Source: Clostridiaceae bacterium (GTDB lineage Bacteria; Bacillota; Clostridia; Lachnospirales; Lachnospiraceae). Taken from it: a stretch of 64,000 bases of DNA. The notes beneath the pieces are model-generated. The model was not told the origin of the DNA. It ran no database searches and saw only the letters and a list, made by a program, of their open reading frames with translations. Positions 11,369 through 45,084 of the stretch are shown here, piece after piece. The position numbers and the translations under genes are program-made. The stretch is taken from NCBI GenBank assembly GCA_009911065.1, contig QXWR01000013.1, forward strand, positions 1 through 64,000, given 5' to 3'. Position 1 is the stretch's first letter; every line of letters begins with the position of its first letter.

Positions 11369-11929
11369 TTATAGCCGGAATGTAAATGTGTCGGAAAGTC
11401 CGCCCCACTTCTTATCCTTCTCGGATAAGATCAGCTCCACGCCTTCCTGTAAAGGCCAGCAAATCCCAATTTGAGGATCATCCCAGGCAATTCCCCCTTC
11501 GTCTCCCGGATGGTAAAAATCGGTACACTTATAAGCAAACTCCGCCTCCTCTGACAGCACCAAAAATCCGTGAGCAAACCCCTTTGGAATATAAAACATC
11601 TTCTTGTTTTCTTCGGTTAATTCCACTCCAAACCATTTTCCAAAGGTTTTGGAGCCTTCCCGCAGATCTACTGCCACATCAAACACAGATCCCCGCAAAA
11701 CCCTGACCAGCTTTCCCTGAGGATACTCTTTTTGATAATGAAGTCCCCGCAGAACCCCCCGAACGGACATGGACTGGTTATCCTGAACAAACACCAAATT
11801 CAGCCCTGCCTCTTCAAAATCCTTCTGATTATAAGTTTCCACAAAATATCCCCGCTCATCTTTAAAAACTGTCGGCTCAATCACACACAAGCCCTCAATG
11901 TCACACCTAGTCACCTGAATCTTTCCCAT
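11369..11929 (-). CDS. rfbC: dTDP-4-dehydrorhamnose 3,5-epimerase family protein
   Basis: A 186-residue cupin epimerase of RmlC/RfbC length. It shows FKDERGYFVETYN, the catalytic His in RGVLRGLHYQ, the Asp in FDVAVDLR, and IPKGFAHGFLVLSEEAEF. RmlC epimerises C3 and C5 of a 4-keto-6-deoxy nucleotide sugar on the way to dTDP-L-rhamnose. RmlA, RmlB and RmlD are not in the window, so either they are elsewhere in the genome or this enzyme acts on another 4-keto-6-deoxy sugar. The start at 11929 has AAGGAG 9 bp upstream and gives the family length; a longer frame to 11968 has no signal. Confidence 0.88.
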   Translation of the reverse strand: MGKIQVTRCDIEGLCVIEPTVFKDERGYFVETYNQKDFEEAGLNLVFVQDNQSMSVRGVLRGLHYQKEYPQGKLVRVLRGSVFDVAVDLREGSKTFGKWFGVELTEENKKMFYIPKGFAHGFLVLSEEAEFAYKCTDFYHPGDEGGIAWDDPQIGICWPLQEGVELILSEKDKKWGGLSDTFTFRL

Positions 11930-34999: not shown

Positions 35000-36094
35000 A
35001 TGAAATTAAAACAGAAACATTTTTCAGGAAAATTTGCCGCTGCATGTCTGATGCTTACCATGACCGCTGGTCAGATGACAGCTTTTGCAGACATCGACCC
35101 TACAGTACCCAGCCCATTGACCGGAAGCGTCAGCCCTGTGTCAGCTGACTCAATCCCAGTTCCTCCTCCAATAGATAGCAATGCCATGGCTCCGGATTCG
35201 TCCGGCCAAGTTGCCAGTCCAGTTACCTATCCATCTCTTTCCACCATTGTCACAGAAGGAGAAAAAGAAAACAACTGGTCCGAACCGATATTTGGAGGCG
35301 CCACTCTTACGTTCCGAGGCAGCGGAACCGGAGGACAGACCTTATCCATGGTTTTGGAAACCAGCAATGGAAGCCTGATTGTAATTGACGGGGGATTTGA
35401 ACAGGATGCAGACAGTTTAAGAAATCACATTAAGGACCACGGCGGCCGGGTGGCAGCGTGGCTGGTCACTCATCCCCACGGGGACCATGTAGGCGCATTG
35501 AACAAACTCCTTCAGGCCAACAACGGCATTTCCATTGACGCCATTTACTGCTCTCTGGCCAGCAAAGAATGGTATACAGCCAGTGACCCCACGGCAGCTG
35601 ACATGGCCATTCGCTTCATTGACACCTTGTCAAGGCTTCCCCAAAACAAGGTTCACTATGTCAGCAAAAACCAGATGATTCAGGTGGATGATGTCACCAT
35701 TCAGGTTTTAAACGACCGTTATGACTTAACCAACACCGGAGACAGCCACTATACCGGCAACAACGCCAGCATTACTTATATGCTGACCATCAATGGGAAA
35801 CGGCTTCTTATTTTAGGTGATATGTGTTATGAAGGAGGTCAACGGCTTCTGGAAGATGTAGGTGCCCCTGGCTTAAAGGCAGATCTTGTGCAGATGGCCC
35901 ACCATGGTCAGGACGGCGTATCTGAGGAAGTCTATCAGGCAATCCAGCCCTCCATCTGTCTGTGGCCCACTCCCAAATGGCTTTGGGAAGGAGACGAAAG
36001 TCAGTACGCCACCCAAACCACCAAACGCTGGATGGTTGGTATGGGCGTTGGGAAACATTATGTAATGAAGGATGGAGAACAGATCATCCAATAG
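35000..36094 (+). CDS. Secreted metallo-beta-lactamase-fold hydrolase
   Basis: A 364-residue exported protein: signal peptide (about 1-31, ending TAFADI), a Pro/Ser-rich linker (about 32-75), then a metallo-beta-lactamase domain related to the ComEC/Rec2-type group. The zinc ligands appear as HPHGDHVG (about 157-164), GD in ILGDMCYEGG and HHGQDG. The substrate is unknown; related secreted proteins act on phosphodiesters. The start at 35000 follows ACAGGAGAATAACCGGT; a longer frame to 34880 would hide the signal peptide. A terminator follows at 36120. Confidence 0.85.
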   Translation: MKLKQKHFSGKFAAACLMLTMTAGQMTAFADIDPTVPSPLTGSVSPVSADSIPVPPPIDSNAMAPDSSGQVASPVTYPSLSTIVTEGEKENNWSEPIFGGATLTFRGSGTGGQTLSMVLETSNGSLIVIDGGFEQDADSLRNHIKDHGGRVAAWLVTHPHGDHVGALNKLLQANNGISIDAIYCSLASKEWYTASDPTAADMAIRFIDTLSRLPQNKVHYVSKNQMIQVDDVTIQVLNDRYDLTNTGDSHYTGNNASITYMLTINGKRLLILGDMCYEGGQRLLEDVGAPGLKADLVQMAHHGQDGVSEEVYQAIQPSICLWPTPKWLWEGDESQYATQTTKRWMVGMGVGKHYVMKDGEQIIQ

Positions 36095-36119
36095 TTTTAC
36101 AGACAGGTTTTTAAAAAGT

Positions 36120-36162
36120 AAGAGCAGTTTGTTTTCGAACCGAAAGCAGTCTGCTCTTTTTT
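36120..36162. terminator. Terminator serving the hydrolase and spoIIID
   Basis: AAGAGCAG pairs with CTGCTCTT; TTTTTTG follows on the plus strand and ACTTTTTAAAAA on the minus strand. It lies between the plus-strand hydrolase stop (36094) and the minus-strand spoIIID stop (36206), so it can act in both directions. Confidence 0.75.
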
Positions 36163-36205
36163 GTGAAATTTCTCTCTGTTTCAGAGATTTCTTTGGTTTT
36201 TTCCG

Positions 36206-36370
36206 TTAATCTTCGGTTTTGCTGCAAATGGCCAGCCGATGCTGATATTTTTCCCTGGTTGCCAGTCCGCCTCGTATATGCCGTTCTGATTTATTTACAT
36301 CCAGCACAATCCGGGCGCGGGCTGCCAGAGACGGGTTAATATGTTCTAAGCGGTCGGTTACATCTTTATG
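36206..36370 (-). pseudogene. spoIIID: 3' portion of split spoIIID (codons 38-91)
   Basis: Read on the minus strand from the CAT at 36370, this encodes 54 residues: HKDVTDRLEHINPSLAAR, then ARIVLDVNKSERHIRGG, LATREKYQHR and a stop at 36206. It is the C-terminal part of SpoIIID; the known Bacillus protein continues STVHKDLTERLPEINP and ends with SIRHLRGGEATKLKYK. It has no start codon or ribosome site of its own. The upstream end coincides with the recombinase attachment site. The missing first 37 residues are at 43666-43776. Joined, they give a 91-residue protein (93 in Bacillus). Confidence 0.92.
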
Positions 36371-36390
36371 TATGGTTGTCTATAATTAGA
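36357..36390 (-). other. Right attachment site (attR-like) of the spoIIID element
   Basis: Minus-strand sequence here is ACCATA-CATA-AAGATG; the shared CATA (36367-36370) equals that at 43662-43665. Element sequence lies on the recombinase side, spoIIID codons on the other. The recombinase stop codon (36366-36368) sits inside it. Confidence 0.7.
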
Positions 36391-37901
36391 GCGTTTTCAT
36401 CCAAACCCAAATCGCCGAGCAAACGCAAGTAAATATCCACATTTCCGTCCTTGTCCACTTCGATTTTCTGAATAATCTGCTTTAACTGCTCATTCGTCAT
36501 GTCCCGGACAGAAGTAATATCCTCAATGCTTTGGAATGTCTTTTTGATGATGTCCTCTAACTGGTCGCCTTTATCTAAGTTGTATTGTACCAATTTCAAC
36601 TCATTTTCCAACCGTTCCATTTCTGATTTCATGCCGCCGATTTTTTCATTCAGTTCTTGTCGGCTAATCAAATCATCGGTATACATATCCATATATTTTT
36701 GACGGGTCTTTTTCAGTTTGGCAAGCTGGTCGTTTAACCCCTTTTCGTAATTCTCGTTATCATCCTTTGCCTTATATATCTTTGTAAACTCTTTTACCAC
36801 ATAGCTGATAATATTCTTTTTTGCTTTCAAAAGCCCGGCAAAGTATTCCTCCAACGCCCGAATCAGATCGTCCTCGTCCACTGTCACCGCATTGGGGCAG
36901 CTATCCGCACCCTTGCCATTATGCCGGGAACATACCCAACGGACGTAAGTATTCTTATAGGTGCGGACAGTGCGCCTGAATGACCAGCCACATTCCTTGC
37001 ACTTAATAAGCGTACTGAACAGATATTTATTGCTTTGGCGTTCATGTTTGATACGAAAGGTATCATGCCGCCCGTGCAGGATTTCCTGTGCCCTGTCGAA
37101 CTGCTCCGGCTCTATGATTCGCAAATCGGGGCGGTCGGTAACGAACCACTCCGATTCGTCCTTTTCTGCCCTTGTACCTGTGAGAAAATCGGTAACTTCC
37201 TGTTTTCCATTGATAATTTTCCCGGTATAAAGCTCATTGGTTAGAATACGGCAAACGGCATTTTGGCTAAAGCTGCAATTACGCTTTGTTTTCAATCCTC
37301 TCTCGTTGAGCATATTCGCTATTTTTGCCGCACCGTAGCCCTCATTCAAATACCAGTCATAAATCTGTTTTACAATCCTTGCTTCTCCCTCATTGATTGC
37401 AAGATTGAAATAATCTCCAATGGTCTTGTCATATCCGTAAACGATATTTGGCACTCTGCCCTTTTCTGCGTTCATTTTCTTTCCGAACTTCACACGTTTG
37501 GAAGTGTTCGCGCTTTCCTCCTGTGCCAATGCTCCAAAAATTGTCAAGACAAATTCCGACTGCCCTAAAACAGTCATATTTGCTGTTAAGAATGTGGTTT
37601 CTATGCCTAACGCCTTTAATGTACGGATACTTTGTAAAAGGTCTACGGTATTACGAGCAAAACGGGAAATATCCTTTACCACTACCATATCAAATAAACC
37701 ATGCTTTGCGTCACGCATAAGGCGTAAAAATTCCTTACGATTTTTGATTTTTGTGCCGGAAATCCCCTCGTCCGCATATAATCTTACAAGGTTGTGACCG
37801 TTCTTTTCGGTATACTCGGTAAAAAACTTCTTCTGGGCTTCCAAGCTGTTAAGTTGGTCGGATTTGTCCGTGGAAACACGGCAGTAGGCAGCTATATTCA
37901 T
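36366..37901 (-). CDS. Large serine recombinase of the spoIIID element
   Basis: A 511-residue large serine recombinase. The resolvase domain (about 1-150) has the nucleophile Ser10 in IAAYCRVSTDK, and VVVKDISRFARN and LTIFGALAQEES; the recombinase domain (about 160-270) includes NIVYGYDK and ARIVKQIYDWYLNEGYGAAKIA; a zinc ribbon follows (LIKCKECGWSFRR ... WVCSRHNGKGADSCPN), and a coiled coil spans about 380-450. It resembles the transposon/ICE recombinases of Firmicutes and, by domain plan, SpoIVCA of the skin element. The start at 37901 gives the standard N-terminus; upstream 37928 has AAAGGA directly abutting. Its stop lies in the attachment site, so excision into a circle would extend the frame by 13 codons. 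Confidence 0.95.
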   Translation of the reverse strand: MNIAAYCRVSTDKSDQLNSLEAQKKFFTEYTEKNGHNLVRLYADEGISGTKIKNRKEFLRLMRDAKHGLFDMVVVKDISRFARNTVDLLQSIRTLKALGIETTFLTANMTVLGQSEFVLTIFGALAQEESANTSKRVKFGKKMNAEKGRVPNIVYGYDKTIGDYFNLAINEGEARIVKQIYDWYLNEGYGAAKIANMLNERGLKTKRNCSFSQNAVCRILTNELYTGKIINGKQEVTDFLTGTRAEKDESEWFVTDRPDLRIIEPEQFDRAQEILHGRHDTFRIKHERQSNKYLFSTLIKCKECGWSFRRTVRTYKNTYVRWVCSRHNGKGADSCPNAVTVDEDDLIRALEEYFAGLLKAKKNIISYVVKEFTKIYKAKDDNENYEKGLNDQLAKLKKTRQKYMDMYTDDLISRQELNEKIGGMKSEMERLENELKLVQYNLDKGDQLEDIIKKTFQSIEDITSVRDMTNEQLKQIIQKIEVDKDGNVDIYLRLLGDLGLDENALIIDNHT

Positions 37902-37947
37902 ACGCAACAGCCTTTCTTTATATTTCATTCCTTTCAGTTACATCTTT

Positions 37948-37976
37948 ATTTTATAACAGAAATATCTCAAAATCAA
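37948..37976 (-). promoter_or_regulatory. Sigma-A-like promoter of the recombinase, overlapping an attB half-site copy
   Basis: TTGATT (37971-37976), a 17-bp spacer and TAAAAT (37948-37953) on the minus strand. The 13-mer GTTACATCTTTAT at 37937-37949, identical to 36357-36369 in spoIIID, touches the -10 box and the likely start point. The promoter lacks a sigma-E or sigma-K pattern. Confidence 0.55.
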
Positions 37977-38009
37977 TAGAAACCTCCAATTTACATCAGA
38001 GGTTTCTAT
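37970..38009 (-). terminator. Terminator after the AlbA_2 gene
   Basis: TAGAAACCTC and GAGGTTTCTA (37977-37986 and 37999-38008) form a perfect 10-bp stem; on the minus strand it is followed by TTGATTTT. Its tail overlaps the -35 box of the recombinase promoter. Confidence 0.6.
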
Positions 38010-38124
38010 ACATACTAAAAGTCCTTTTTTATTTCTTTTAAATTTTGAAGCAAACTTTTCATTTCTCTTTGAGTCACTCTATAGATATACTCTTTTGATT
38101 CTAATTATTTAAAATGTATTACTT

Positions 38125-39792
38125 TCAAACCAAGTACCACTTCGCATACCGATTTGTTCCTCTCGCCGCAATCAGCCCATCCTTTTTCATTGCCTGCAAA
38201 AGATTCGATACCTTCTTCGACTTCTGATTCTCACTTAGCACCTCTGGCAGTGCTTTTTCCAATATCTCCATCAAATCCTGTTTACTTCCTTCGCCCATCT
38301 TCTCCAATGCCTTTACAATCAACTGTTTGCATATATCATCATCCAATCCCTTATTTCGAATATAATCTGCCTTTTGCCCTACAGTATCTGCCACCTTAAA
38401 AGACACAAACAAATTTGGATATCTTCCCTCTACTAATCCCTGTTTTCTCAAAATTTTAAAGTTCTCTTTGGAAATCGTTTCTTTCTTTTGAACCTTATCC
38501 AATAAAAATACTGTGTGTATATCAAGTTCTCCATTGGCATACAATAGCTGTGTATAGTTTTTATCCAATATCTTCCCATAAACCATAACTTTGACCCTAT
38601 TAATAGTATCCAGATTATATGTTGGTAACGGAAAGCATTTATCCCTCTGAATCTGATACATCATAGGTATTCCCATAGAATTTGTATCAATCATATACAA
38701 ATTTACCATGGCATTACACAAGAACATATTGCGATAGTAAGGTGGTTTATACCCAGGTTCTAACGCCTGCTCAATTGTTTCCGGGATAAAGCCGCCCTCA
38801 TTGATAAAAACAAGCTTGTCCTCAAATTCTTCTACATTTATTTTTCCTCTCAGCCGATAATCCTGATGCGCAATACAATTATTGAGAATCTCTTTAATCA
38901 TCTCTGGCTCATATTGATCCACTTCGTCTGGAAACAAGGTTTGCTGTCCTGCTATATAACGATACTTCACATTTCGAATCCTGGAATATACCTTATCAAC
39001 AGCTAACAACAGCGGCATATCAAAATGCTCATAAGTCTTTACCGAATTATCCGCATTATAAAGCGTCCATGTTATTCTCGGAATAAAACCGTCAAAAAAA
39101 TAATGAGATTCACTTTTTCCCAAAAGGAGCAAGGCTGTTCTTGTAATATTGCCCTTTATTGTAATTCCCGCCTTATTCAACACCTCTATATCGGACAGTT
39201 TTTTCAAAATCTCCTGTGCCTTTTTACGGTCGCTCTGCCGTTTTGAAAACAATTCTCTTGCCCGTTTCACGGCTTCCTCATCTAAATCATTCAGAGCAGC
39301 GCCCTCCACGATTTCTTTTGACCAATCCATTCCAATCTGACTTCTGATTAAATCCACTTTATTCATTGGCAGCGGCGACACCGATTCGTGCTCTCTGGCA
39401 TAAGCGGCTCCCTGCCATGTAGTGGGAATTCCCCTTATTGCTGGCGGAATCTGAAATGCGATAACTCTGCACTCATTCATAGACATCTCATAAATTTCCA
39501 TAAAGGTCAATCTCTCATTTGTACCATTTACAAGTTCCCGCTTCAGATTTTGAAGTCCACCCTGCTTTCGAAACTCTGTTCCCACGAACTCTTTACTGTC
39601 TGATATCCCAAAAATCAGCCACGCTTCCGATAAGCCGCGCAAATTTGCTTCATTACTCAAAGCAGAAAAGTATTTTCCAATATCATTGAATGAAAAATTA
39701 CTTCTGGCCTCTTTGAATTCAGCCACTTCATTTTCAAAAGAATCTATCAGCGCTACGATTTTTTCTTTCAGCTGTGCATCTGTGTAAATCAT
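38125..39792 (-). CDS. AlbA_2/HATPase_c_4 ATP-binding regulator-like protein
   Basis: A 555-residue protein of the COG2865 type. The N-terminal AlbA_2 domain (about 10-140) has EVAEFKEARSNFSFNDIGKY and AWLIFGISD. A histidine-kinase-like ATPase part (about 250-400) includes EMIKEILNNCIAHQDYRL and KLVFINEGGF, and the C-terminus looks like a winged helix (about 430-555). Such proteins are common cargo of mobile elements and are called transcriptional regulators, with Schlafen-like AlbA_2 members also tied to phage defence; no specific role is proven here. The start at 39792 has a distant AAAGGTGGG; a start 24 bp upstream is possible. Confidence 0.82.
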   Translation of the reverse strand: MIYTDAQLKEKIVALIDSFENEVAEFKEARSNFSFNDIGKYFSALSNEANLRGLSEAWLIFGISDSKEFVGTEFRKQGGLQNLKRELVNGTNERLTFMEIYEMSMNECRVIAFQIPPAIRGIPTTWQGAAYAREHESVSPLPMNKVDLIRSQIGMDWSKEIVEGAALNDLDEEAVKRARELFSKRQSDRKKAQEILKKLSDIEVLNKAGITIKGNITRTALLLLGKSESHYFFDGFIPRITWTLYNADNSVKTYEHFDMPLLLAVDKVYSRIRNVKYRYIAGQQTLFPDEVDQYEPEMIKEILNNCIAHQDYRLRGKINVEEFEDKLVFINEGGFIPETIEQALEPGYKPPYYRNMFLCNAMVNLYMIDTNSMGIPMMYQIQRDKCFPLPTYNLDTINRVKVMVYGKILDKNYTQLLYANGELDIHTVFLLDKVQKKETISKENFKILRKQGLVEGRYPNLFVSFKVADTVGQKADYIRNKGLDDDICKQLIVKALEKMGEGSKQDLMEILEKALPEVLSENQKSKKVSNLLQAMKKDGLIAARGTNRYAKWYLV

Positions 39793-39922
39793 TTTGGCAC
39801 GCCCACCTTTCATCACTCTATGACTAAATTCTATGACTAAACCAGGACTTCCTAGAACTAATTTAATACTATTTTAGCTAAAATTCAGTCATTACGCAAT
39901 CACCAATCGCAAAAGGAACCAC

Positions 39923-40102
39923 TCATACTGAATAGCTCCTGATTTCTGCTGGCTGAAACATTTCTTCTTTTACACTTTCCTGCAATACCCTATCTAATTT
40001 CTCTTGATTTGCTTCAAGAAATATTTTAAGTATGTAATTGGCAGTTTCTTCCGCTGTATTAGGATTGTGAAAGCGGAAATTTAATTTAACCTTATTAGCG
40101 AT
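39923..40102 (-). CDS. Small element protein with an apparent ATC start
   Basis: A 59-residue frame beginning right after GGAGGTGGTTTCACT. Reading from ATC: (M)ANKVKLNFRFHNPNTAE, ETANYILKIFLEANQEK, then QPAEIRSYSV and stop. No ATG, GTG or TTG is present at the right distance, so either ATC starts translation weakly or the start codon mutated. It follows the DnaC remnant by 18 bp, as small accessory genes do in Firmicutes conjugative elements. No function is recognised. Confidence 0.5.
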   Translation of the reverse strand: MANKVKLNFRFHNPNTAEETANYILKIFLEANQEKLDRVLQESVKEEMFQPAEIRSYSV

Positions 40103-40120
40103 AGTGAAACCACCTCCATT

Positions 40121-40399
40121 TCATCTTGCTACCCTAACCCCTTGTCCATAACTATGAGTAAAAACAGAAAAATAGTCCTCATTTTTTGCTCCATTCATAA
40201 GTAATCTCAACCTCTCCATTTTCTCCCTCGCTTTTGTTTTTCTGAAATTCTCCCCGGTAATGCAGACGGGGCAGCACATTTCCGTAAGGCGGTCATAGAT
40301 ACGAGCGTGGGCGGTGTGCTCCGGGTTCTGCAGTTCTTCAAGAGTATGATTCGTTGTCACGATTAAGGGCTTGCCGCCTCGGTATCGGCTGTCTATCAC
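40121..40399 (-). pseudogene. C-terminal remnant of a DnaC/IstB-like helicase loader
   Basis: About 92 residues beginning at a GTG that lies inside the old coding frame: the in-frame upstream codons read AKVYNVIDSRY, the usual family sequence. IDSRYRGGKPLIVTTNHTLEEL and TAHARIYDRLTEMC match the sensor/arginine-finger end of DnaC-like ATPases carried by conjugative elements. The Walker A and B regions are missing. A deletion joined it, out of frame, to the MobC-like gene, so it is not expected to be active. Confidence 0.8.
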
Positions 40400-40773
40400 G
40401 TTATAGACTTTCGCTGTCTGTCGGCTTCTTTCCGGCGGCGCACTCTTGCGGCGCAGTCGGGGCAGTATTTCCCACGGTTGGATTTCGAGAGAAAATACCC
40501 GCCGTACTCGTTCAGACAGCGGGCAATCTGGTTCAAGTTGCCGCCTATCTTTCCATACTCGGCTGTGAGTTTCCCAACGGCAGAGAGCAATTCATCATTG
40601 ACCGGGGAAACGGTAATAACCGGGCGTATGCTTGACTTAATGAGGGCTTGCCGGATAAACTCGGCTTGGCTCATTTTGCAGAGGGTGACACGCTCGGAAA
40701 ACTCGGCGTATTCTTCCTCGGTCAAGCGTGTTTTGATTACCCGGTGGCGGTGGGGCGTGTTGTGTTTTTTCAT
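40396..40773 (-). CDS. MobC-like mobilisation protein with aberrant C-terminus
   Basis: A 125-residue protein. Residues about 10-95 match plasmid mobilisation relaxosome proteins of the MobC type (IKTRLTEEEYAEFSERV, SQAEFIRQAL, LTAEYGKIGGNLNQIARCLNEYGG). The last 30 residues (SNRGKYCPDCAARVRRRKEA and after) are a Cys-containing basic tail that looks taken from a different protein by deletion; its stop overlaps the DnaC remnant. AAAGGAGATTCACAGCC precedes the start at 40773. MobC normally helps a relaxase at oriT; no relaxase remains. Confidence 0.75.
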   Translation of the reverse strand: MKKHNTPHRHRVIKTRLTEEEYAEFSERVTLCKMSQAEFIRQALIKSSIRPVITVSPVNDELLSAVGKLTAEYGKIGGNLNQIARCLNEYGGYFLSKSNRGKYCPDCAARVRRRKEADRQRKSIT

Positions 40774-41331
40774 GGCTGTGAATCTCCTTTCGTGGGTGGA
40801 TTTTTTCAAGCGACGCAAGCCGCAAAAAGCGGGCTTGGGGTGACAACCCCAACAAGATTCCCATAGGACAAAATGAGCCGATAAGCGAAATTTGGTACTG
40901 CGGTAGAATCTTGCTCTAAGAAACTGCACTGTGTGGTCTATTCGCTTACTATCCAGCTATTGGCGGCTGGTTTGTTGCGTTCCGGCGAAAATATCTCATG
41001 GAAGTTTCCCTTTTCGTGGGGCAATACGGCGGTTTTTCAAAAACGCCGAAAAAAAACGCAAAAAAACAGGAAACCTTTTTATGATTTCCTGTCTTGGTGT
41101 GCCGTTCTATGTGGCGGCGGTTATTCAGTTTTGGGGTGTGGCTGTTCATCAAAGCGGAACTGGAACAGGGCAGCGATAAGCCGCCGTTTATCCCTGTCAC
41201 GCCATGCGTTGATTGCTGCATAGTGTATGACAACTCTGCAAAAGGCGTTAAATGTGTATTCGATATGTTCCTTGTATGCTTCTGTACAAGTTATGGAAAT
41301 TCCCCCTTTCTCTCACAATGGACTTACATGG
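40774..41331. other. Gap upstream of mobC with oriT-like inverted repeat
   Basis: The 558-bp stretch has no convincing gene. At 40835-40852 TTGGGGT and ACCCCAA flank GACA, 62 bp upstream of the MobC-like gene; this position and shape fit an oriT of a mobilisable element. ACAGGAAA/TTTCCTGT (about 41068-41096) could be a weak hairpin. Open frames on both strands lack ribosome sites and family matches. Confidence 0.4.
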
Positions 41332-41586
41332 TTACATTTTTCCTGTGTCCGTTGGTAAAGTGTTTTTTGTTGATTCTGCGTTCTCCGCCTCACGCTTTTC
41401 TTGTTCCTTTTTCAAGCGTTCTTTTGCGTCTGCTACGGTTTCACCGTCTTTTGTAAGATAGCGGTCAACAAAAGCGTCCTCTATTTTGGAATAGCCGCCA
41501 ACAACTGTTTCTTCAATTTTCTCAAATGTGCCTACAACTTTTTCCGCGATTTTTTCATTTGCTTTTACGATTTTAGATTTCGCCAT
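41332..41586 (-). CDS. Small charged hypothetical protein
   Basis: An 84-residue hydrophilic protein with an amphipathic N-terminal helix (MAKSKIVKANEKIAEKVVG), a middle KIEDAFVDRYLTKDGETV and a Lys/Glu-rich tail. No membrane segment. AAAGGATAAATAATT precedes the start. It is last of three genes read from the divergent promoter region at 42.65 kb and begins 2 bp after the preceding stop. I recall similar small proteins next to such membrane genes in Firmicutes, without a known function. Confidence 0.75.
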   Translation of the reverse strand: MAKSKIVKANEKIAEKVVGTFEKIEETVVGGYSKIEDAFVDRYLTKDGETVADAKERLKKEQEKREAENAESTKNTLPTDTGKM

Positions 41587-41588
41587 AA

Positions 41589-42260
41589 TTATTTATCCTT
41601 TCTTTTTCCTCTTGTTATCAATACAATCCCAAGTATCAGCACAAATAAACAAACAGCACTCCCAGTTAATATATTCATTGTGCGAATATCCGTATCGCTC
41701 ATTCCACCAAACGAAACAAGCATAGAACGCTGTAAGGTCAAGACAGACGCTGCTGCTTCTGCATAACTAATGCTACGGATAATTGAAAGCAACGGTGAGG
41801 GATTCTTGCGTTGCTTTACAGCTTTGATAATTGTCATAGTTATTTTATAAAACGTATAAGCAGCAATCGTAATCATAACAATTTCACCATGCTTTGTGGC
41901 AATATTGCGTGATAAGCTAATATAAATTGCTCCTACTAAAACAAAATTCAACAAGACAAGCAATACTCCGCATAACTTCATCACAAAATATTCTGTGTCA
42001 CTGGAAGAAATACTTTTATTCTTCTGTCCGCACAAAATAGCAGATAAACGTATGGTACTTAAAACGATATAATAAGCACACATAGTTATAAACCATACTG
42101 AATGATTGATTATGCCAAGCGCACCATTATAAAAAGCATATAAAAGATTTAGGGAAAAGCTCAATACCGCAAATAAAATGATTCGTGAACGTTGCTCGAT
42201 AAACTGTTTCCCTATTTCCGTTCTTTCAACCTTGTTGATGATTCTCTGTTTTATATTCAA
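41589..42260 (-). CDS. Integral membrane protein, unknown function
   Basis: A 223-residue protein with about six hydrophobic segments and a positively charged N-terminus (KQRIINKVERTEIGKQF). The TTG start at 42260 overlaps the stop of the upstream gene (TTGA) and has AAAAGGGAT upstream, so translation is coupled. An open frame to 42560 exists, but its N-terminal part only shadows the upstream gene. It is probably a partner of its two neighbours in a TetR-controlled membrane system (inference). Confidence 0.75.
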   Translation of the reverse strand: MNIKQRIINKVERTEIGKQFIEQRSRIILFAVLSFSLNLLYAFYNGALGIINHSVWFITMCAYYIVLSTIRLSAILCGQKNKSISSSDTEYFVMKLCGVLLVLLNFVLVGAIYISLSRNIATKHGEIVMITIAAYTFYKITMTIIKAVKQRKNPSPLLSIIRSISYAEAAASVLTLQRSMLVSFGGMSDTDIRTMNILTGSAVCLFVLILGIVLITRGKRKDK

Positions 42261-42628
42261 TCTTTTATCCCTTTTATCAGAGGAATTAACGAAAGCAGAA
42301 TAACAATACCAACTAAGCCGATTATGACACCAATAACCATTTTGCCCCATACCATGCAGAAACACATTCCTACACCCAGTGCTAAAGCACCTATAACACC
42401 AACAATAATTGTAAGAATTGTTTTGCCGGAAATCTGAATTGGCTGCTTGTGTTCCATTTTTCTCCAAACGATTAAGGTAATCAGTCCAAGCAAAAGCCCC
42501 ACGCAACCGAATACAATTCCCGGTTGAAATGCTTCCCATTCCGGGATAAGTGCCATGCACATTCCCAAAGCAAACAATACGCCGCTTATCGTTCCCATAA
42601 GCATTGCCACAAAACTACTTTTTTTCAT
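42257..42628 (-). CDS. Small membrane protein, four predicted helices
   Basis: A 123-residue protein with hydrophobic segments at about 5-27, 36-54, 70-92 and 98-118, linked by a short basic loop (WRKMEHKQPIQISGK). The start at 42628 has AAAGGAGGTAAACTTG. It heads the minus-strand trio and faces a tetR-type gene across 120 bp, the usual layout of a regulator controlling its divergent target. Confidence 0.78.
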   Translation of the reverse strand: MKKSSFVAMLMGTISGVLFALGMCMALIPEWEAFQPGIVFGCVGLLLGLITLIVWRKMEHKQPIQISGKTILTIIVGVIGALALGVGMCFCMVWGKMVIGVIIGLVGIVILLSLIPLIKGIKD

Positions 42629-42657
42629 CAAGTTTACCTCCTTTTTTTGACCAACAG

Positions 42658-42686
42658 TTGTTTGTTTATTGTAAGAATAGTATAAT
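42658..42686 (+). promoter_or_regulatory. Promoter of the tetR-type gene
   Basis: TTGTTT (42658-42663), a 17-bp spacer and a perfect TATAAT (42681-42686) on the plus strand, 62 bp before the regulator start. Minus-strand TATACT overlaps, so the two divergent promoters probably share operator DNA. Confidence 0.65.
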
Positions 42687-42748
42687 AAATCTGCCACTCC
42701 AAAACAATCAACAATATATGCACAAGTGTTGGAATAAAGGGGATTTTT

Positions 42749-43291
42749 ATGAACACAAAAAATAATAAGCGGAAACGTGAGTCTATGCAGAAAATAGAAC
42801 AAGTATTGATAGAATTTCTCCAAACAAAGGAATTAACTCAAATCAGTGTTTCCGATATATGTAAAAAGGCAAATTTGAATCGTAGTACCTTTTATGCAAA
42901 CTATGTTGATATATACGAATTAGCCGACACAATAAGGGAAAAACTGGAAGCCCGTGTTGCGGAATTGTACAAAGATGAAATTACGCAAGGTTTTAACTCA
43001 AATAATTATCTGGTGCTTTTTCAACATATAGCACAAAATCAAATTTTTTATCGCACCTATTTCAAATTGGGATATGATGAAAAATACAAGATTTTGACTT
43101 ACGATTATGAACTGGCACAAAAACATTTTGGTGACTGCCTTATCGAATACCATATGGAATTTTTCAAAAGTGGTCTGACAAGGATAATCAAGTTATGGTT
43201 ACAAAATGGCTGCAAGGAAACTCCTGAAGAAATGTTTGAGGTCATAAAAAGTGAGTATCGTGGGCGTGAGGAATTTTTTGCTGCAAAATAG
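42749..43291 (+). CDS. TetR/AcrR-family regulator
   Basis: A 180-residue regulator. The N-terminal helix-turn-helix (about 10-57) contains LIEFLQTKELTQISVSDICK, KKANLNRSTFYANYVDIYE; the C-terminus resembles the TetR_C_7/DhaS type (TRIIKLWLQNGCKETPEEM). It probably represses itself and the divergent membrane-gene trio in response to a small ligand. AAAGGGGATTTTT precedes the start. It is the only plus-strand gene of the element. Confidence 0.88.
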   Translation: MNTKNNKRKRESMQKIEQVLIEFLQTKELTQISVSDICKKANLNRSTFYANYVDIYELADTIREKLEARVAELYKDEITQGFNSNNYLVLFQHIAQNQIFYRTYFKLGYDEKYKILTYDYELAQKHFGDCLIEYHMEFFKSGLTRIIKLWLQNGCKETPEEMFEVIKSEYRGREEFFAAK

Positions 43292-43318
43292 TAACGTCAT
43301 TTATTACTCCTTGCATTT

Positions 43319-43612
43319 TTAGCCCTTTAAGACAGTAGGAATGAGAGGGATTCCGTAGTCATCGGCATTGTGGTAATGTGTATAACTTGCTATCTTATCA
43401 TAGCCTGTTATGCACATTTCCATAATGCTTGTTTTTTGGTCTTTGGTTTCTTTGGTTCGGAATAGTGTGGTGCTGGAGGTCTATCTCTTGTTTTCGGTTG
43501 CTTGCTTCTTTACCGTACATGAACATTTGCGACATACACATTCTCCTCCTACACACAAAGCAAGCGGCAATCTTCTTATTTTTAAGGCAGACCGCCGCTT
43601 TCCATCTTCCAT
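43319..43612 (-). pseudogene. Cys-rich element frame interrupted by TAG
   Basis: From ATG at 43612 a 98-codon frame reads MEDGKRRSALKIRRLPLALC, GGECVCRKCSCTVKK, then an in-frame TAG (43481-43483), then on to GYDKIASYTHYHNADDYGIP and a stop at 43319. The two halves look like one small protein with a zinc-type Cys cluster. Other readings overlap it: a 45-residue frame (43398-43535) with a strong AGGAGGAGAATGTGT site and a 34-residue frame (43319-43423). I do not recognise the family. It is the element's first segment after the left boundary. Confidence 0.45.
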
Positions 43613-43644
43613 ATTCGATTAACTTATCACCCACATAGACCGTT

Positions 43645-43776
43645 CTATTTTATCACTACTGTATGCACTGTACTCTTGCTAATTCCAAACCGCTTTGCTG
43701 TCTGACGCACCGTCGCATTATGGTCTATAATGTAATTAGCGATTGCCACTGCCCGCTCTTCGATATAATCCTTCAT
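43645..43776 (-). pseudogene. spoIIID: 5' portion of split spoIIID (codons 1-38)
   Basis: A 43-residue frame beginning MKDYIEERAVAIANYIIDHN, then ATVRQTAKRFGISKSTVH and, after the element boundary, the unrelated TVVIK and stop. It is the helix-turn-helix part of SpoIIID (Bacillus: TVRVIAKEFGVSKSTVHKDL). The start follows AAGGGTAAAACC. The coding match ends exactly at His38, where the element begins; codons 38-91 are at 36206-36370. SpoIIID is the mother-cell regulator acting between sigma-E and sigma-K. The truncated product lacks the C-terminal basic DNA-contacting helix and should be inactive. Confidence 0.92.
43650..43680 (-). other. Left attachment site (attL-like) of the spoIIID element
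   Basis: Minus-strand sequence AGTACAGTG-CATA-CAGTAGTG: spoIIID codons for S-T-V-H on one side, element on the other. The CATA (43662-43665) is shared with 36367-36370. Confidence 0.7.
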
Positions 43777-43803
43777 GGTTTTACCCTTAAGAATGTTTTT
43801 TAC

Positions 43804-43833
43804 ATCTTATGCGGGCATGATTTTCATTATGAA
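43804..43833 (-). promoter_or_regulatory. Sigma-E-like promoter of spoIIID
   Basis: Minus strand: TTCATAAT (43826-43833), a 14-bp spacer, CATAAGAT (43804-43811). This resembles the sigma-E pattern (GTCATATT, about 14 bp, CATACAAT); spoIIID is sigma-E-dependent in Bacillus. It lies 27 bp before the spoIIID start and after the rtcB stop. Confidence 0.55.
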
Positions 43834-43848
43834 TCCAAAACCTTCTTC

Positions 43849-45084
43849 CTATCCCTTAACGACTCCGACCGTTTTAAGCTCTGTCACAATCTCCACCAGA
43901 TCTTCCTGTGCTTTCATAACTTCCCGAATATCTTTATAGGCAAACCGGCATTCCTCTGCCACATCCGCCTTTTTGTTCTTTCCCAACACAATGCCCTGAT
44001 CTTTTAAATCCCGAATCACCTTTTCACAGGAAAACGCCTCCATGGCGCCCTTTCTGGAATAAGCTCTCCCAGCCCCATGAGAAGAACTGTTAAAGCTTTC
44101 CGGATTTCCCTTTCCCCGGACTACATAGCTGTACGAACCCATAGCGCCGGGAATCACAGCAAGTTCTCCCTTCAAAACCCGTGTGGCCCCCTTTCGGTGA
44201 ACCCACACATTGGCATCATAGTGATTTTCCAAAGCTGCATAGTTGTGATGACAGTTAATTTCCTCTGAAAACGTTACCTGCTTTCCAAGAAACTTTTCGA
44301 TCTTTCCTGCCACAGACTCCTTCACCCGCGCCATCATTCTCTCCCTGTTCTCAAACGCATAATCCAGGGCAAGCCTCATCCAGACAATGTACTCCCTGCC
44401 TTCCTTTGTGTTGACCGGAAGAAATGCCAAACGATATTCATCTGGAACCTGACTGTACCACAAATCATTTAACTCACGAGCCTTCTTGTGATACACATCG
44501 CAGATCTGTTTCCCGAAATGGCGGCTTCCGGAATGAATCATAATACCTAAAAAACCATTTTGATCTTCCTGAAGCTCAATAAAATGGTTGCCTCCCCCTA
44601 AGGTTCCAACCTGATAATAAGCATCCTCAATGAGAGGAAACAGCTCTGGATTGGTCTCATAAAGCTCTCGCTGTTTTATGGCCTGATCCAGTACTCTGGA
44701 TGGCTGACGCTCTTTATGAGATTGAAAACCTACAGGGATATTCCGCATAATATCCGAAATCATTGCCTGAATCAGCGTGCCATTGCCCGTTGATTCCACC
44801 TTCCGTATCTCCTCCACCAAAAGATTGGTTGAGACAAAATTCATGCCACACCCGATATCCACTCCCACTGCATTTGGAATAATGACATCTTTTGTGGCAA
44901 TCACCCCTCCAATCGGCATCCCTTTTCCTGTGTGCGTATCTGGCATCAGACAAACCCACTTGTGCAAAAACGGCAGATCCGCCAGATGGTAAGCCTGTTC
45001 CAGACAGCTTTCCTCTATCTGCTCCACATTTTCCAACCACACCCGAATCGGCTTTTTCATGTTTTTCTGATAGATCACAAACAT
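43849..45084 (-). CDS. rtcB: RtcB-family RNA ligase
   Basis: A 411-residue RtcB-like GTP-dependent RNA ligase, joining 2',3'-cyclic phosphate (or 3'-phosphate) and 5'-OH RNA ends. Metal- and guanylate-site motifs are present: CLMPDTHTGKGMPIGGV, AVGVDIGCGM, GTLGGGNHFIEL, MIHSGSRHFGK and the guanylated His region SSHGAGRAYSRKGAM. It is shorter than E. coli RtcB (408-480 residues vary by branch). The start at 45084 has GGAAGGGAGTGAACCAA. Archease is not adjacent. It lies upstream of spoIIID but has its own context between a repeat element and that gene. Confidence 0.93.
   Translation of the reverse strand: MFVIYQKNMKKPIRVWLENVEQIEESCLEQAYHLADLPFLHKWVCLMPDTHTGKGMPIGGVIATKDVIIPNAVGVDIGCGMNFVSTNLLVEEIRKVESTGNGTLIQAMISDIMRNIPVGFQSHKERQPSRVLDQAIKQRELYETNPELFPLIEDAYYQVGTLGGGNHFIELQEDQNGFLGIMIHSGSRHFGKQICDVYHKKARELNDLWYSQVPDEYRLAFLPVNTKEGREYIVWMRLALDYAFENRERMMARVKESVAGKIEKFLGKQVTFSEEINCHHNYAALENHYDANVWVHRKGATRVLKGELAVIPGAMGSYSYVVRGKGNPESFNSSSHGAGRAYSRKGAMEAFSCEKVIRDLKDQGIVLGKNKKADVAEECRFAYKDIREVMKAQEDLVEIVTELKTVGVVKG

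Follow-up and report, generated by a model that had tools for sequence, protein, structure and literature searches.

A mobile serine-recombinase element splits spoIIID in a Clostridiaceae bacterium and recurs in relatives: predicted excision in the sporulating mother cell

Introduction

Is a spoIIID gene that has been cut in two by a mobile element a lost gene, or one that is put together again whenever the cell sporulates? This question was raised by a 64,000-nucleotide stretch of DNA from a Clostridiaceae bacterium placed in the Lachnospiraceae (GenBank assembly GCA_009911065.1, contig QXWR01000013.1, positions 1 to 64,000 of the forward strand; hereafter, the window), in which the two halves of spoIIID are separated by an intervening element of about 7.29 kb (36371..43661, minus strand) bounded by the two joints. 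An initial annotation of the window had proposed a skin-like element, and skin-like developmental excision is what sequence comparison leads us to predict for it. Herein, we describe the split gene, the core shared by its joints, the serine recombinase encoded at the joint, the recurrence of this arrangement, the spread of the elements between hosts, and the joined attachment site (attP) found in viral contigs. In our judgment, it is likely that the mobile serine-recombinase element splitting the only spoIIID of the assembly would be precisely excised in the mother cell during sporulation, whereby the gene would be rejoined.

Results

The only spoIIID of the assembly lies in two halves

A profile search with PF12116 over the 284 contigs of this draft assembly gave two half matches only, both of which scored above the curated cut-off, lay in the window and contained no internal stops; no intact second spoIIID, the outcome named in the initial annotation as speaking against it, was found among these contigs. 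The 5′ half (43663..43776, minus strand; profile positions 1-40, 61.1 bits), set against 20 intact loci of the genus, comprises codons 1-38, and its open frame continues into the element as far as 43645. The 3′ half (36206..36367, minus strand; profile positions 34-80, 73.4 bits) comprises codons 39-91 (36209-36367) followed by the stop codon (36206-36208). Both halves were thus located on one strand and 7.3 kb apart, as had been claimed, the coding sequence being interrupted between codons 38 and 39.

Comparison of the joints revealed a common core, CATA, which stands in GTG-CATA-CAGTAG at the upstream joint (43662..43665, minus strand) and in ATA-CATA-AAGATG at the downstream joint (36367..36370, minus strand). 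Joining at this core restores the frame and reads STVH-KDVT, and the continuous 91-codon gene expected from it was matched by relatives: the intact genus loci span the join position with STVHKD in 20/20 and STVHKDVT in 15/20 cases, and the 91-residue composite SpoIIID occurs as an intact open reading frame (ORF) in two clusters of public proteins, P0001 and P0002, at 100% identity and 100% query coverage. Since the residues upstream of this ORF in the two clusters are unlike those of the window, they need not come from the same strain.

A large serine recombinase of 520 residues is encoded at the inner edge of the downstream joint (36366..37928, minus strand), its stop codon falling within the joint, and the Pfam domains Resolvase, Recombinase and Zn_ribbon_recom were all detected in it above cut-off. 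In an alignment of 15 recombinases including this one (A1), the region AYCRVSTD was invariant. The in-gene insertion, the element's own serine recombinase, the shared core and the want of an intact second copy together bear out the skin-like architecture that had been put forward.

By its layout, a sigma-E-type spoIIID promoter (43804..43832, minus strand) was recognized as TCATAAT (43826-43832), a 14-bp spacer and CATAAGAT (43804-43811). A KMATATT-like box, 14 bp and CATA, which we take to be the layout of sigma-E promoters, precedes spoIIID in 9/20 intact genus loci as well as in the split gene of the window and in L023, L024 and L027. The sigE gene was found in the window's own genome.

Split spoIIID genes recur in the genus, family and class

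Within the genus, 4 of 24 genomes (G000, G004, G019, G021) held only spoIIID halves; in G021, which carries 7% contamination, the pieces were spread over three contigs. The family sample comprised 397 genomes, 247 of which gave a SpoIIID match, and the 28 with half-like best scores were re-examined. Both halves and no intact gene were found in 20 of the 247, and one usable half in the remaining eight of the 28. Because 12 of these 20 genomes hold both halves on one contig, the single-contig genome G254 included, the split is neither a chance match nor a misassembly, and that of the window was confirmed as real. In the class sample (391 genomes, SpoIIID match in 280), re-examination of 15 low scorers revealed both halves without an intact gene in eight (G493, G504, G506, G579, G729, G736, G746, G793), a single half in four (G536, G595, G612, G675) and a divergent near-whole gene in G567; the halves of G579, another single-contig genome, lie 65 kb apart. 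The shortest insert measured about 3.5 kb (G078) and the longest about 75 kb (G129), and the inserts differed in gene content.

The joint falls at codon 38/39 in 17 of the 20 split family genomes (both sides read for 15, the 5′ side for G054 and G193), and ACAT is common to both joints in most relatives. A single joint for all family splits was ruled out by G099 (L054, L191), G155 (L051, L192) and G369 (L047, L193), in which the joint lies at codon 40, the 5′ side reading STVHKDDG or STIHKDDG and the 3′ side starting from D40; G194 (L057), for which the 3′ side was read, belongs with them. In two of the former three, distant recombinases (23-27% identity) stand beside the 3′ half. Independent recombinases thus appear to have converged on almost the same spoIIID bases, a few bases past the main joint.

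As a separate observation, G013 and G015 of the genus carry, 1.3-7 kb upstream of an intact spoIIID and on the same strand, an extra 5′ fragment (9535-9666 in L029 of G013; 12036-12179 in L028 of G015), possibly left by an insertion or duplication through which the gene was restored.

Related recombinases spread between hosts and remain at spoIIID

Alignment A1 was scanned against one genome per species, and at least 80 loci were obtained; 21 short duplicate loci were left out of the 3′-half compilation, the recombinase/host comparison and the small-ORF counts given below. In most mapped elements, a relative of the window's recombinase is encoded just upstream of the spoIIID 3′ half. Among the matches listed, the 3′ half was found downstream in 47 of the 53 loci L080-L132 (recombinases of about 49% identity or more), starting in all 47 at the same HKD, mostly at most 0.2 kb and never more than 2.4 kb away; the loci without it were L080, L101, L114, L128 (contig end), L130 and L131. 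Hosts of these listed matches included Blautia glucerasea MSK.21.93, Schaedlerella arabinosiphila DSM 106076, Pseudoflavonifractor phocaeensis An569 and Anaerobacterium chartisolvens DSM 27016, together with metagenome-assembled genomes labelled Pelosinus and Selenomonadales, both of which we take to be Negativicutes. Likewise among the matches listed, 26 of the 28 genomes reached through the recombinase carried both halves but lacked a full SpoIIID match, the exceptions being G437, in which a 3′ half alone was seen, and G442, in which a 3′ half was accompanied by a weaker match covering positions 6-80.

The recombinases of L069 and L081 are 94.7% identical, compared with 50.9% for their SpoIIID 3′ halves, and over 59 loci the Mantel correlation between recombinase and host divergence was 0.20 (p 0.009). 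Since the two divergences do not track each other, the elements are mobile and attach preferentially at spoIIID, and the argument that the elements must be in use because they have long been inherited vertically was rejected as a general one. The recombinases pass between distant hosts and yet remain at spoIIID. In the phage and plasmid reference collections, all recombinase matches stayed below 60%; the best (59.4%) was a human faecal record in which the recombinase is followed by the spoIIID 3′ half.

The arms of the element form an imperfect inverted repeat, and in many elements the outer ends are of the AACCGTTCT and AGAACGGTT types. Three IMG/VR contigs (L160-L162; L160 and L161 identical over 21.5 kb, L162 identical over 160 bases) encode a 79% identical recombinase followed by both arms joined, CTGATTAGTGACTCCTGTACAT-ACAGGAGTAACAAAATAGAACGGTT. 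These joined arms are the attP predicted from the integrated copies. Among eight proteins scanned on the viral contigs, the integrase included, one phage-type DNA polymerase and one NrdD were found.

The gene adjoining the recombinase was strongly clustered on a quick tree of 108 recombinases, some branches of which are long (23 rows were left out, namely the 21 short duplicates and two viral copies): spoIIID accounted for 71 rows, cotJC for 16, a third gene for seven and others for 14, and the cotJC rows fell on one side of a branch with a Shimodaira–Hasegawa-like approximate likelihood ratio test (SH-aLRT) value of 99. The 16-member clade (L145-L159, L170; 31-36% identity to the window's recombinase) lies at cotJC, against its 5′ part, which breaks off after TDIG or NDIG. 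With cotJC (Mn catalase family) taken by us, from its name, to be a spore coat gene, it would be a second sporulation gene serving as attachment site; searched for cotJC, the open-licence PMC literature returned papers on other subjects in the portions available. L145, a record labelled Bacteroides sp., carries a cotJC fragment and a recombinase, and is probably a mis-binned clostridial contig. In L134, L136-L141 and L144, recombinases of 43-49% identity adjoin a conserved protein family that gave no Pfam or NCBIfam match and whose named public homologues are hypothetical proteins. In L101, a 69% relative adjoins, near 11503, an ORF with collagen-like GPT repeats in place of spoIIID. L130 consists of a spoIIID 5′ half (1066-1194), an element, an attachment-site-like end near 11602 and then other DNA, with the 3′ half on another contig, which looks like tandem elements at one site.

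A small ORF of the element follows a sigma-E-like promoter

A sigma-E promoter driving the recombinase was not supported, since a motif score of at least 13 was reached in 2 of 54 upstream regions (from 59 recombinases; the others were skipped, having no anchor motif or no upstream sequence), no excess over the 2.1% of shuffles. Judged by eye, the conserved region before the recombinase holds a vegetative-looking promoter and then a sequence much like the spoIIID codons that follow the joint; in the window (37930..37955, minus strand), it reads TATAAA followed by AAAGATGTAACTGAAAGG. This near copy of the codons for KDVTER (AAAGATGTAACAGAACG) is shared by many relatives, as if the recombinase may bind half an attB in its own promoter and so control itself.

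A small ORF of the pattern KRKLNYRFHNPN..E.TADYLLKILIEAN..KVE was present in 41 loci, or in 39, that of the window included, after removal of two viral copies. The window's copy (39923..40102, minus strand; 59 residues, apparent AUC start) is our candidate recombination directionality factor, and the small protein was modelled as two helices (mean predicted local distance difference test score, pLDDT, 81; predicted template modelling score, pTM, 0.46). Pattern comparison placed a sigma-E-like promoter before it (40148..40177, minus strand), composed of GACTATT (40171-40177), a 14-bp spacer and CATAGTTAT (40148-40156). TATT, TATC or TAAC, exactly 14 bp and then CATA preceded the small ORF in 28 of the 39 elements; no other spacing between 8 and 22 bp was seen except 18 and 22, once each. 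Mononucleotide shuffles of the same upstream regions yielded a mean of 0.68 and at most 4, a figure that overstates independence, given that the sequences share ancestry and had been looked at before the pattern was set. As a control, the pattern was found upstream of 13 of 391 ORFs (60 residues or more, 24 loci), at least 4 of the 13 through this same promoter. By analogy with CD1234 of C. difficile and the SP-beta factor, we propose that the small protein is a sigma-E-controlled directionality factor. Directly behind the -10 region lies GGACAAGG (40140..40147, minus strand), which resembles a SpoIIID box; as a speculation, GGACAAAG at this place could be a feedback site by which SpoIIID closes the switch.

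These promoters bear on the possibility that excision is spontaneous and without developmental timing, any cell having a small chance of losing the element and sporulation being left to those that happen to have lost it. Such loss agrees with the vegetative look of the recombinase promoters; moreover, the exact composite SpoIIID among public ORFs tells that element-free genomes occur, and the yin element of Clostridium botulinum was excised at all time points according to the available part of PMC10747680. Under this explanation, however, a conserved sigma-E-like promoter before the small ORF would be purposeless, and we regard it as very improbable.

Signs that the split gene is still in use

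SpoIVA was detected in all 38 genomes with split or half-only spoIIID (27/27 of the genus and family, and 11/11 named genomes drawn from the 28 reached through the recombinase) and in 19/20 genomes with intact spoIIID, the one without it being 67% complete. Of 20 genomes without spoIIID above cut-off, by comparison, five had SpoIVA above cut-off. These figures cut both ways for a simple inactivating insertion, in which spoIIID would be an attachment site, sporulation would be lost or impaired, and the clean joints would reflect site-specific integration: the 15/20 family genomes lacking both genes suggest that sporulation loss is common in the family, but the retention of SpoIVA in every split or half-only genome argues against such loss there.

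The codon changes likewise disagree with inactivation. Counted between nearest neighbours in the genus, so that changes after insertion are not isolated, they amounted in the 3′ half to 5 nonsynonymous and 70 synonymous in four split species versus 94.5 and 355.5 in 20 intact ones, and in the 5′ half to 0 and 23 versus 69.2 and 235.8 (L028 and L029, which repeat L016 and L010, were not counted among the intact loci). The halves thus appear as constrained as intact genes, and selection on them shows no relaxation in the genus. Each of the 69 3′ halves that were compiled was open to a stop (L055 has another joint; L057 was dropped, having no KD anchor), although decayed copies would be missed, since the halves were found by similarity. 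In three of the 14 pairs tested, the recombinase had diverged at synonymous sites about as far as the 3′ half, or further (L060/L062, 0.73 and 0.48; L117/L118, 0.43 and 0.50; L127/L120, 0.41 and 0.47), and these three fit co-inheritance. A sporulation-type promoter within the element, before the candidate factor, also speaks for a function in sporulation rather than for inactivation.

Besides the limits attached above to the codon counts, the shuffle figure and the recombinase promoters, several observations weigh against developmental excision. Given the horizontal movement of the recombinases, many insertions could be young, and intact halves may then reflect youth and not use. No circle junction of the window's element was found in its own 284-contig assembly. 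In G687 and G754 of the class, an intact 3′ half is accompanied by a sole 5′ match that is degraded and contains three stops, and the recombinase of G054 is interrupted by a stop. As for the candidate factor, its AUC start in the window is unfavourable, its promoter pattern is missing in 11 of the 39 elements, and the promoter deviates from the sigma-E consensus at several positions. The possible youth of the insertions, the missing circle and the degraded 5′ matches are also what favours inactivation; all told, we consider inactivation unlikely and still predict excision in the mother cell.

Anaerobacterium chartisolvens presumably forms spores; a search of the open-licence PMC literature, in its accessible portions, returned no description of spores of this species or of Schaedlerella arabinosiphila.

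Other contents of the element

As cargo, the Pfam scan further identified a Schlafen AlbA_2/HATPase_c_4 protein of 563 residues (38125..39816, minus strand), and domain scans a NikA/MobC-like mobilization protein (40396..40929, minus strand) and a TetR-type regulator (TetR_C_8; 42749..43291, plus strand). With the NikA/MobC-like protein present, no relaxase, such as an integrative and mobilizable element would encode, was found among the eight element proteins that were domain-scanned, and no Rfam family matched at gathering scores within 36000-44000.

Discussion

The predicted course of events can be outlined as follows. The recombinase would be made in growing cells and would integrate the element at spoIIID as attB. 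After asymmetric division, sigma-E would turn on the small element-encoded directionality factor. Recombinase and factor together would then cut the element out in the mother cell, which is bound to die and can therefore lose the circle at no cost. spoIIID, likewise driven by sigma-E, would then be read whole, so that the cascade could proceed to sigK, and SpoIIID might shut off the promoter of the factor again. Since spoIIID stands one step earlier in the cascade than sigK, the factor cannot need SpoIIID as that of C. difficile does. A constitutive recombinase combined with a sporulation-controlled factor has precedents in SP-beta and C. difficile skin (available parts of PMC5595907 and PMC5025042): in the latter, the recombinase CD1231 is not sporulation-specific, and the small CD1234, under sigma-E, gives directionality (PMC5025042, in part).

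In a broader sense, we lean toward the view that spoIIID, the first mother-cell regulator after sigma-E, serves, across Clostridia and Negativicutes, as a standing attachment site for a group of serine-recombinase elements and phages that spread horizontally. A sigma-E-switched directionality factor would be carried by many of them, so that the mother-cell programme would start by DNA rearrangement in a sizeable minority of these spore formers. They would form part of wider recombinase clades each specialised in one sporulation gene, as the 16-member clade in cotJC may be, and unrelated recombinases would have converged on nearly the same spoIIID bases. If this is true, many spore formers have the regulator heading the mother-cell line in two parts that are likely rejoined, it would be a misreading to count a genome of this kind as devoid of spoIIID and hence as non-sporulating, and mobile elements would converge on genes of a terminal cell, where excision costs the lineage nothing. 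The spoIIID elements also supply recombinase/attachment-site pairs from anaerobes together with a candidate reversal factor, and cell-type control of excision becomes testable in isolates such as Schaedlerella arabinosiphila DSM 106076 and Blautia glucerasea MSK.21.93.

The skin-like elements that we found in print were described one by one, in other sporulation genes. The part of the yin paper available to us names sigK, spsM, spoVFB and gerE in addition to yabG as interrupted sporulation genes (PMC10747680), and no earlier report of an element in spoIIID was found in the accessible portions of the open-licence PMC literature. Of the known systems (each as described in the available part of its source), C. 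difficile skin is alike in that a serine-recombinase element splits a mother-cell regulatory gene (PMC5025042), but its target is sigK, whereas spoIIID lies upstream of sigK. The SP-beta prophage in spsM of B. subtilis, with SprA and SprB, demonstrates that a prophage can be an intervening element (PMC5595907), and a relative of the spoIIID-element integrase occurs, similarly, in phage-like contigs with a free attP; the two differ in gene, host class and element family, and the spoIIID inserts vary in length and gene content. The gin element in gerE of Bacillus cereus also splits a small sporulation regulator, contains no phage genes and has a core at both joints, but is 28.6 kb long and encodes three serine recombinases (PMC5595907), in contrast to the one at the joint in the window. 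The yin element in yabG of Clostridium botulinum is likewise a serine-recombinase element, and a putative sporulation-type promoter precedes its putative factor; it was reported as unique to one strain (PMC10747680), whereas elements in spoIIID are found in many species and move from host to host.

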